Of a stretch of DNA of 64,000 bases, positions 16,023 through 18,210 are shown piece after piece; the stretch's first letter is position 1, and each line of letters starts with the position of its first letter. A program made the translations under genes and the position numbers. The stretch lies in NCBI GenBank assembly GCA_016281495.1, contig JAEEIU010000058.1, positions 1-64,000 of the forward strand, in the 5' to 3' direction. The notes beneath the pieces are model-generated. The model was given only the letters and a program-made list of their open reading frames with translations, was not told the DNA's origin and ran no database searches. This stretch comes from Treponema sp. GTDB lineage: Bacteria > Spirochaetota > Spirochaetia > Treponematales > Treponemataceae.

Positions 16023-16032
16023 GAGTAATTAA

Positions 16033-16095
16033 GAATTACGAATTACGAATTACGAATTATGAATTATGAATTATGAATTATGAATTATGAATTAT
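16033..16095. repeat. tandem heptamer array, nine copies
   Basis: Three copies of GAATTAC are followed by six of GAATTAT without interruption. The array lies between the divergent purB and TlpA-like promoters and ends nine bases before the -35 box of the latter. Such short arrays can change length by replication slippage, and here that would alter promoter surroundings rather than a reading frame. Confidence 0.95.
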
Positions 16096-16139: not shown

Positions 16140-17159
16140 ATGAAAAAGATTGGTTTATCAGTTCTGGCTTTGGCCGCATTTTTGGTTTTTTCTTCCTGTA
16201 CAGATAAAAATGATTTTGTTGACTTTGCAGAAAACGGCGTGCAGCTTTTAATCAGTCAGGAATATATGGACAAGGGAATCTCCTATGACTGTTACAGTTC
16301 GGACATGGCACAGTATCCTACGTTCATAATTGCATTTTCCTACATGCCCGCACTTGACCGGCTTTATGAGCAGGCCGAGGTGATGTGGGATACAATCCAA
16401 AGCAAAGAGGCCCAGGATTTGTTTATGGAAGATTTTGAACGCTCCCTTGCCTTGCATCAAAAAATACTTGCCTTTGGAATAACCATTCCTGAATCTGACT
16501 ACAAGAGGCTTGATCCCGGTGAATATCTTGCAAGCCTCCCTGTAATCGCAAAAAAATACGGATACGTCTACATCCTTAATACAATAGATAATTCAACTGA
16601 AGAAATGGATGACGAGGAAATCGAGGCCTTTAACGACTGCAAAAGCTATATCGACAAATCAATCAGGAAAATCCGCATCATGGAGCCTGTCATAAAAACT
16701 ATGGAAAACAGCTCAAGTCAATCTCTGGTTTTCCCGCAGTTTGAATCTCCTGCCTTGGACGGTACTCCAATTACAGATGAGGTGTTTGCAGGAAAAGACA
16801 TAACTTTGGTTCATATCTGGGGAACCTTCTGTACTCCATGCATAGAGGAAATGCCGGCACTGGCTGAATGGCAGAAGACTCTTGCACAGAATGTTCAGGT
16901 TCTGGGAATTGTCTGTGACGTGGGTTCACTTGATGACTCAAATGAAAAAGAGCTTGCACTTCAGATTATCAAAGATTCAGGGGTGGAGTTCCCCAATGTC
17001 ATTGCATCGGGCGGCATCCTTACTTATCTTACATCCGTTCAGTTTGTGCCTACTACGATTCTGGTTGATTCTGAAGGAACGATTATAGGCGAACCGATTG
17101 TTGGTGCCAGACTGGAAGATTATAAAAAGGCCGTAGAAGATTATGTTTCTTCACATTAG
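16140..17159 (+). CDS. TlpA-like thioredoxin-fold lipoprotein
   Basis: This 339-residue protein carries a lipoprotein signal (MKKIGLSVLALAAFLVFSSC, lipidated Cys20), so it should be anchored on the periplasmic side. Residues 30-200 form a helical region I do not recognise. The C-terminal part is a thioredoxin fold of the TlpA/ResA type: FESPALDGTPI, then LVHIWGTFCTPCIEEMPAL with redox cysteines 231 and 234, and a cis-Pro region in VQFVPTTILVDSEG. It probably reduces disulfides or passes electrons in the envelope. It is the first gene of an operon with a CXXC membrane peptide and a polyferredoxin-like membrane protein. A longer frame from 16080 would start before the promoter and is rejected. 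Confidence 0.85.
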   Translation: MKKIGLSVLALAAFLVFSSCTDKNDFVDFAENGVQLLISQEYMDKGISYDCYSSDMAQYPTFIIAFSYMPALDRLYEQAEVMWDTIQSKEAQDLFMEDFERSLALHQKILAFGITIPESDYKRLDPGEYLASLPVIAKKYGYVYILNTIDNSTEEMDDEEIEAFNDCKSYIDKSIRKIRIMEPVIKTMENSSSQSLVFPQFESPALDGTPITDEVFAGKDITLVHIWGTFCTPCIEEMPALAEWQKTLAQNVQVLGIVCDVGSLDDSNEKELALQIIKDSGVEFPNVIASGGILTYLTSVQFVPTTILVDSEGTIIGEPIVGARLEDYKKAVEDYVSSH

Positions 17160-17172
17160 GGTGGGGTGAGCG

Positions 17173-17334
17173 GTGGATAAAGAATTCAAGTTGAAGAAAT
17201 TGATTTTTCTCCTGAGGATTTTTATTGTCCTGCTCTCTGCATCCTTTATTGTTTATGGAATATTCCGCGGTGAATTGAAAGTTGTTTTTAATAAAGCCGT
17301 GCGCATCTGCCTTGAATGCATGGGAATCGCGTAG
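17173..17334 (+). CDS. small CXXC-containing membrane protein (CD1871A-type)
   Basis: This 53-residue frame starts at GTG 17173, 13 bases after the TlpA-like gene. One membrane helix (FLLRIFIVLLSASFIVYGIF) is followed by RGELKVVFNKA and the C-terminal CXXC in VRICLECMGIA. The pattern matches the small CD1871A-type CXXC proteins, which I recall next to 4Fe-4S membrane proteins. It could pass electrons or hold a metal between its two neighbours. No experimental role is known to me. Confidence 0.75.
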   Translation: MDKEFKLKKLIFLLRIFIVLLSASFIVYGIFRGELKVVFNKAVRICLECMGIA

Positions 17335-17355
17335 TTCAAGATCGGGGGATTCAGC

Positions 17356-18210
17356 ATGAAGATTAAGATTTCCCATCCGGTAAAAAGAAAACTTGTTCAA
17401 CTTGCCGCTTTTGGCTTTTGCAATTCGCATTTGAATAATTTTGTGACGGGAAAAATCTATACTGGAAAATGGAAGAATTTCTGTTCTCCGGGAATGAACT
17501 GCTATTCATGTCCTGCCGCAAGTCTTGCCTGTCCTATTGGTGCCATGCAGGCATTGGGTTCTTCCCCTGGATTTTCTGTTTCGTTTTATGTCCTTGGATT
17601 TGTGCTTGCCATTGGTGTTGTTCTTGGACGTTTTGTATGCGGTTTTTTGTGTCCCTTTGGTTTGCTCCAGGAACTGATTTACAAGATACCCGGACGTAAA
17701 TTCAAGATTCCAAAATGGACCCGCTATATTAAATATTTTATTCTTTTGTTCTTTGTGCTGATTTTGCCTGCATCCAGTACGGTCTCTGTTGGTGCCGGTA
17801 AAGCTTATTTCTGTGAGTATATTTGTCCGGTTGGTAGTGCGGAGGCGGCTGTTCCACTGGTGCTGACCAATCCTCCCCTGCGTTCTGCTGTTGGTGGGCT
17901 TTTCTGGTGGAAGATTTCGCTGCTGTCAGTGATATTGCTTTCCTGTGTTTTTGTGTGCCGCTTTTTTTGCAAGGTGTTCTGTCCGTTGGGTGCCATCTAT
18001 GGCCTGTTGAATAAAATCTCGTTTTACCATGTTGAGGTTAATCATGAAAAATGTACCTCATGTGCCCGTTGTGAAAAAGCCTGTCCAATGGATGTGAATC
18101 CCGTAAAGAACCCTCGAAGCTGTGAATGCATACTGTGCGGTCATTGTGCATGGGAGTGTCCGGAGAAAGCCATCAGCTTGACATTCGTGAATAAAAAGAA
18201 AAAAAACTAA
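17356..18210 (+). CDS. polyferredoxin-like 4Fe-4S membrane protein (YccM/NapH-type)
   Basis: This 284-residue protein has several membrane helices and many cysteine motifs. The membrane part has CYSCPAASLACPIGAMQ, VCGFLCPFGLLQ, CEYICPVGS and CKVFCPLGAIYG, the repeated CxxxCP pattern of NapH/NosR/YccM-type proteins. The C-terminal tail has two ferredoxin motifs, CTSCARCEKACP and CECILCGHCAWECP, each able to bind a 4Fe-4S cluster. It probably moves electrons across the inner membrane. As third gene of the operon it may supply electrons to the TlpA-like lipoprotein through the small CXXC peptide. Its stop overlaps the convergent HAD gene by four bases. Confidence 0.85.
   Translation: MKIKISHPVKRKLVQLAAFGFCNSHLNNFVTGKIYTGKWKNFCSPGMNCYSCPAASLACPIGAMQALGSSPGFSVSFYVLGFVLAIGVVLGRFVCGFLCPFGLLQELIYKIPGRKFKIPKWTRYIKYFILLFFVLILPASSTVSVGAGKAYFCEYICPVGSAEAAVPLVLTNPPLRSAVGGLFWWKISLLSVILLSCVFVCRFFCKVFCPLGAIYGLLNKISFYHVEVNHEKCTSCARCEKACPMDVNPVKNPRSCECILCGHCAWECPEKAISLTFVNKKKKN

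Follow-up and report, generated by a model that had tools for sequence, protein, structure and literature searches.

A TlpA lipoprotein, a CXXC membrane peptide and a Fer4_5 membrane ferredoxin encoded together in Treponema: a candidate outward thiol-reducing cassette of anaerobic bacteria

Genes and motifs of the cassette

Three plus-strand genes, separated by gaps of 13 and 21 bp, form a tight operon at positions 16140-18210 of the window, i.e. the whole 64,000-nucleotide stretch of DNA that was analysed. The window lies on contig 8 of a 3.2-Mb, 98.8%-complete genome of a Treponema-like spirochaete, and the named spirochaete relatives of the locus are mostly Treponema. The cassette is flanked by a divergently read purB/pflA block on one side and by a convergent HAD hydrolase gene on the other. 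A preliminary description had read this operon as a TlpA-like CTPC lipoprotein, a small CXXC membrane protein and a membrane ferredoxin, and all three are indeed present on the same strand. Each part belongs to a known family (PF00578, NF040920 and PF12801, respectively), and the cassette is present in hundreds of anaerobic bacteria. The features are summarized in Table 1.

Table 1. Positions of the cassette genes and of their cysteine motifs in the window
Feature	Position	Strand	Basis or conservation
TlpA/ResA-like thioredoxin-fold lipoprotein, 339 aa	16140..17159	+	lipobox FSSC at residue 20; AhpC-TSA match
TlpA active-site motif CTPC (C231, C234)	16830..16841	+	sequence; column conserved in alignment
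CD1871A-family single-helix membrane peptide, 53 aa, GTG start	17173..17334	+	NF040920 match
CLEC (C46, C49) of small peptide, predicted outer face	17308..17319	+	sequence, alignment
Fer4_5 / NapH-like membrane ferredoxin, 284 aa	17356..18210	+	PF12801
First predicted outer Cys segment, C43-x5-C49-x2-C52-P-x5-C59-P	17482..17532	+	invariant in 51 cassette proteins
Predicted inner motif C95xxxC99(P), common with NapH	17638..17652	+	invariant also in outgroup relatives
Second predicted outer motif C153xxxC157(P)	17812..17826	+	invariant in 51 cassette proteins, absent in relatives
Predicted inner motif C205xxxC209(P), common with NapH	17968..17982	+	invariant also in outgroup relatives
Predicted cytoplasmic 2[4Fe-4S] ferredoxin domain (C233-C243, C258-C268)	18052..18159	+	Pfam Fer4

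The lipobox of the first protein is followed by a helical N-terminal region of approximately 175 residues and then by the TlpA domain, which carries WGTFCTPC (WxxxCxxC) and a cis-Pro motif (FVPTT). This domain matches AhpC-TSA PF00578 with 38.4 bits (Pfam cut-off 26), and the score against the ResA model NF002854 is 49.3 bits, below the 170-bit cut-off (NCBIfam); judged from these scores the protein is a relative of ResA, not ResA itself. It is the sole strong TlpA-type protein of the window genome. A tandem repeat, (AATTATG) x 9.9 at 16027-16095, lies just upstream of the gene and supplies spurious upstream ATG codons; a longer reading from the ATG at 16080 would start inside this repeat, and the start at 16140 yields a signal peptide. 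At four Bacillota loci (L071, L087, L098, L124) an in-frame TGA falls exactly at the first active-site Cys of TlpA, giving the motifs WSTGUPSC, WTQTUVSC, WTTTUPSC and WATFUGSC. Full-length SelB scoring over its cut-off is encoded in all four genomes, so selenocysteine is a reasonable predicted reading of this TGA, and UxxC thiol:disulfide oxidoreductases of such type appear in selenoprotein reviews (PMC9312934, PMC13188914).

The small peptide matches NF040920 at 63.8 bits (NCBIfam cut-off 32 bits; E 9.5e-18) and is thus a clear member of a family already known by name; no papers using the CD1871A family name were found in the literature search, and the family exists as a name only. The peptide comprises one hydrophobic helix and a C-terminal end, ICLECMGIA. 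The CXXC of the preliminary description is present as CLEC, four residues before the C terminus. The Lys-rich N terminus suggests that CLEC faces outward. In an alignment of 21 relatives, a Gly and both Cys are invariant, and the surrounding residues are strongly conserved as ICxECIGIG; two divergent members keep the CxxC with changed residues between the cysteines (CYSC). The expectation that gene callers easily miss so small a gene holds only in part, as NCBI annotates it in Peptoclostridium. Some Treponema-like genomes carry a second copy of the small gene or of the cassette (L035, L077; genome G116). Searches with the small protein gave no phage matches and one plasmid record. CTn5 of C. 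difficile 630 spans CD1845-CD1878a (PMC3158075), a range that includes the locus number CD1871A; from this number only, it may be that the cassette travels on mobile elements in Bacillota. That the small peptide might be homologous to the N-terminal part of the Fer4_5 protein was considered and rejected as resting on an alignment artefact (hmmsearch full-sequence E >2 for all).

The third protein scores 71.8 bits for Fer4_5 (PF12801; Pfam cut-off 22, E 4.3e-20), and its two ferredoxin motifs, as previously described, are confirmed as Fer4 matches. Four CxxxCP motifs had been counted in its membrane part; there are three (C95-C99, C153-C157, C205-C209) plus one CxxCP (C49-C52-P). The other two CxxxCP of the protein sit in the ferredoxin motifs, and C43 and C59-P are further conserved in the membrane part. 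Across 51 cassette proteins C43, C49, C52, C59, C95, C99, C153, C157, C205 and C209 are all invariant, as are seven of the eight ferredoxin cysteines, the eighth being nearly so. Four other proteins, namely NapH and YccM of E. coli, a relative from Chloroflexota and a second Fer4_5 protein encoded in the window genome, have only C95/C99, C205/C209 and the ferredoxin cysteines in common with the cassette protein; C43, C49, C52, C59, C153 and C157 are not conserved in these four. Hydropathy and charge predict a position at cytoplasmic helix ends for C95/C99 and C205/C209 and an outside position for the six extra cysteines. The second Fer4_5 protein (contig 39, L136 6500-7231) is NapH-like and lacks the six extra cysteines. 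A confident AlphaFold2 model of the cassette Fer4_5 protein has a pLDDT of 90.4 and a pTM of 0.86, and in a fold search with this model PDB ferredoxins match residues 223-284 only (Z up to 7.5).

Linkage, co-inheritance and the distribution of CcdA/DsbD

Relatives of the small protein are encoded at at least 532 places in a scan of GTDB genomes, and the best 80 of these loci, from Spirochaetota (Treponema) and many Bacillota, were kept. Among these 80, a Fer4_5 gene lies within 1.5 kb at 78 loci (within 150 bp downstream at 74), TlpA is near 69 and was not found near 11, and all three genes occur together at 67; several of the incomplete loci terminate at a contig edge. NF040920 was found in 65 of 393 sampled Spirochaetota genomes, and the 30 best Spirochaetota loci, viewed with 1.5 kb on each side, include Fer4_5 in 29 and TlpA in 24. 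When wider stretches are considered, Fer4_5 and TlpA are the conserved neighbours. The same linkage occurs in Peptoclostridium. The survey of co-occurrence that had been suggested for this operon thus finds conserved linkage in two phyla, Spirochaetota and Bacillota. TlpA may stand before or after the other genes, and this variable order argues that the association is not tied to a single frozen operon. At one Lachnospiraceae locus (L076 3310-4293) a thioredoxin reductase-like flavoprotein gene takes the place of TlpA directly upstream of the small gene.

Co-inheritance is most evident within the genus of the window (59 genomes), where a strong TlpA match is present in 28/28 genomes with the small gene versus 2/31 without it (Fisher p 8e-15). 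The two exceptions are a TlpA match near a contig end (G819) and an incomplete match (G815). Other genomes of the genus without the small gene have weak or no TlpA matches, mostly short frames of approximately 105-125 aa resembling the usual cytoplasmic thioredoxins.

Approximately 15 of 101 loci (L034, L035, L066, L069, L075, L091 and others) have histidine kinase and response regulator genes close by; these two-component genes, found at a minority of loci, are the only recurrent extra neighbours of note. Their presence would fit a cassette that acts mainly as a redox sensor informing a two-component system. This reading is highly improbable, since most loci, including that of the window, have no two-component genes nearby and a sensor would not need a full electron conduit. 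An outlet of respiratory or dissimilatory type, in which excess ferredoxin electrons are discharged to an external acceptor and TlpA is one of the carriers, would agree with the use of Fer4_5 relatives by respiratory reductases and flavinylated extracytosolic systems (PMC8238504). No recurrent terminal reductase, cytochrome or FMN-binding neighbour was seen among the loci scanned, and Pfam finds no FMN domain in the Fer4_5 protein, which makes such an outlet improbable.

The preliminary description proposed that the cassette works without DsbD/CcdA. In agreement with this, the PF02683 (DsbD/CcdA) domain was found neither in the 98.8%-complete window genome, by a search that was positive in 10/14 control genomes, nor by Pfam in the three cassette proteins. 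Counted from listed matches, with unlisted genomes scored as lacking one, PF02683 occurs in 254/393 sampled Spirochaetota genomes (10/65 with the small gene versus 244/328 without; Fisher p 3e-19) and in 270/398 sampled genomes of Bacillota, the phylum of Dorea (16/60 versus 254/338; p 1e-12), and these p-values overstate independence because the sampled genomes are related. The same complementarity appears at genus level in Spirochaetota, where PF02683 is found in 10/22 genera with the cassette versus 127/146 without (p 4e-5). Both the small gene and PF02683 occur in 10 Spirochaetota and 16 Bacillota genomes, and neither occurs in 84 genomes of each phylum sample. PF02683 is also found in 6/17 named cassette genomes, nearly all Bacillota, so coexistence is possible. 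Lifestyle may drive both distributions, i.e. strict anaerobes without c-type cytochromes may differ from other bacteria in both cassette and CcdA.

Where spirochaetes possess CcdA but not the cassette, a TlpA gene adjoins ccdA at 7/9 loci examined; TlpA thus appears to have swapped its membrane partner. Replacement of DsbD/CcdA is supported by the absence of PF02683 from the window genome, by the complementary distribution and by this change of partner. Two findings had been named beforehand as speaking against the system, i.e. no conserved linkage elsewhere and a DsbD or CcdA of this organism dedicated to the same job; both were contradicted.

Proposed electron route

The evidence above is best explained if the cassette is a cytoplasm-to-outside thiol-reducing pathway that fulfils the function of DsbD/CcdA with another chemistry, a reading to which we assign a probability of approximately 0.7. 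The route from ferredoxin through the membrane to periplasmic disulfides, as envisaged in the preliminary description, is an interpretation that linkage and distribution support; its course, direction and final acceptor are given here as a proposal. Low-potential electrons, probably from a ferredoxin-like donor, would enter the Fer4_5 protein at its cytoplasmic 2[4Fe-4S] ferredoxin domain and would pass to an inner centre formed by C95/C99/C205/C209. From here they would reach an outer centre built from the six subfamily-specific cysteines, most simply one Fe-S cluster and a dithiol, or dithiols only. Fe analysis of NosR gave no more than eight Fe (PMC5928378), so the CX3CP motifs in that protein may be dithiols rather than clusters, and both arrangements of the six extra cysteines may be considered on this basis. 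The outer centre would convert one-electron flow to two-electron thiol chemistry. Anchored next to this centre, the small CD1871A peptide would take up the electron pair with its CXXC tail and hand it to the TlpA lipoprotein, which would in turn keep extracytoplasmic proteins reduced.

The role of the peptide is the step at which a variant of this pathway has to be weighed. The peptide may instead be a structural or assembly subunit, with its CXXC holding a metal or assisting in assembly of the outer cluster, and TlpA may be reduced by the Fer4_5 protein without an intermediate. A small subunit is plausible for a chain of 45-53 residues whose C-terminal tail goes unplaced in a model: when the small and Fer4_5 proteins were modelled as one chain by stop-codon read-through, the CXXC tail remained unplaced (pLDDT approximately 41). 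The conservation of ICxECIGIG around the CXXC also exceeds what a plain dithiol shuttle needs. These points are set against two invariant cysteines spaced like those of redox CXXC motifs, the near-perfect co-inheritance of the peptide with TlpA, and the two divergent members in which the CxxC is kept while its inner residues are altered. A structural or assembly role of this kind is considered less likely than a relay through the CXXC tail.

The direction of flow also requires consideration. Since direction is unreadable from sequence and Fe-S conduits run either way, electrons could be drawn inward as TlpA thiols are oxidised, which would make the cassette an anaerobic disulfide-forming system with a role like that of DsbA/DsbB; NapH-like conduits are inferred to serve both reductases and oxidases (PMC8238504). 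Such inward flow is distinctly improbable. TlpA/ResA-type domains and UxxC motifs are typical of reductants, and the predicted selenocysteine variants of Bacillota can reasonably be read as a sign of reductive chemistry. Moreover, the cassette replaces the reductant CcdA and not DsbB, and TlpA adjoins CcdA in relatives without the cassette.

MsrB was not found in the window genome. The outward thiol-reducing pathway would therefore lack the partner best known for reductants of this type, which counts against it, and for this organism the idea that extracytoplasmic MsrAB is served by the cassette was rejected. Two adjacent, apparently secreted proteins of 546 aa and 1082 aa are encoded on contig 53 of the window genome (L162 4543-9448), and the larger has three redoxin-like domains, two of them with CxxC (CGRC, CPRC), joined by long Thr/Ser/Asn-rich linkers. 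This pair may be a client or a partner of the cassette outside the cytoplasm.

Comparison with known systems

Known routes for moving reducing power outward rest mainly on the DsbD/CcdA thiol relay and its relatives. Many strict anaerobes have no DsbD/CcdA and nevertheless have TlpA-type proteins on the outside, and the cassette would explain how these are served. It would also give a role to a widespread small-protein family that has so far only been named, and would link ferredoxin metabolism directly to the reduction of extracytoplasmic thiols. The three genes were not found described together in the open-access literature, to which the search was confined. What the preliminary description saw and how it read the operon both hold, with a corrected motif count and far firmer support from comparison.

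CcdA/DsbD acting with TlpA, ResA or CcmG resembles the cassette in that reducing equivalents cross the membrane to an extracytoplasmic TlpA-type protein and in that a TlpA gene stands beside the gene of a membrane reductase. CcdA/DsbD, of the PF02683 family, relays through thiols only and receives its electrons from thioredoxin, whereas the cassette employs an unrelated Fe-S protein and a separate CXXC peptide.

NapH, NosR, RdhC (PceC) and YccM have the membrane module and the two inner CX3CP motifs in common with the cassette Fer4_5 protein, and its C-terminal 2[4Fe-4S] domain is also found in NapH, NosR and YccM. The six invariant cysteines predicted to lie outside distinguish the cassette protein from NapH, YccM and two more relatives. 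Its scores against the NapH models are below the NCBIfam cut-offs (TIGR02163, 62.2 versus 213 bits; NF007013, 55.6 versus 234 bits), and napA, napG and napB were neither found among the window neighbours scanned nor noticed as recurrent neighbours of related loci. The output of the cassette would be a thiol protein, in contrast to the NapG, NosZ or flavin domain of the NapH/NosR/RdhC/YccM conduits.

Flavinylated NapH-like and DsbD clusters, in the available part of PMC8238504, show the same modular organization of extracytosolic electron transfer as the cassette, and the DsbD clusters described there likewise combine a thioredoxin-like protein with a short secreted one whose C terminus is CXC (DUF4266). 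A Fer4_5 protein coupled to TlpA and a CXXC peptide is a feature of the cassette that was not met in that part of the source. According to Pfam none of the cassette proteins has an FMN-binding domain, and neither FMN-binding nor ApbE genes were seen as recurrent neighbours.

The closest likeness in proposed chemistry is with FTR, in which a one-electron Fe-S donor likewise drives two-electron disulfide reduction. FTR is soluble and unrelated in sequence, whereas the cassette Fer4_5 protein spans the membrane, and no FTR domain appears among Pfam and NCBIfam matches at E 0.1 (for the Fer4_5 protein, among the best 25 of 31 NCBIfam matches).

As a system, the cassette is therefore not of the DsbD/CcdA, NapH or FTR type, nor of the flavinylated type of PMC8238504, as it lacks at least one tested defining feature of each. 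In the proposed route the early steps are like those of NapH-like conduits and the final two like the output of DsbD/CcdA; the new element is what connects them, namely the six subfamily-specific cysteines and a separate CXXC peptide, and there is a fair chance that the chemistry itself is new. It is tentatively suggested, at somewhat short of even odds, that the cassette represents an integral-membrane outward ferredoxin:disulfide reductase with a detachable 45-53-residue CXXC peptide, widespread in anaerobes and evolved independently of DsbD/CcdA.
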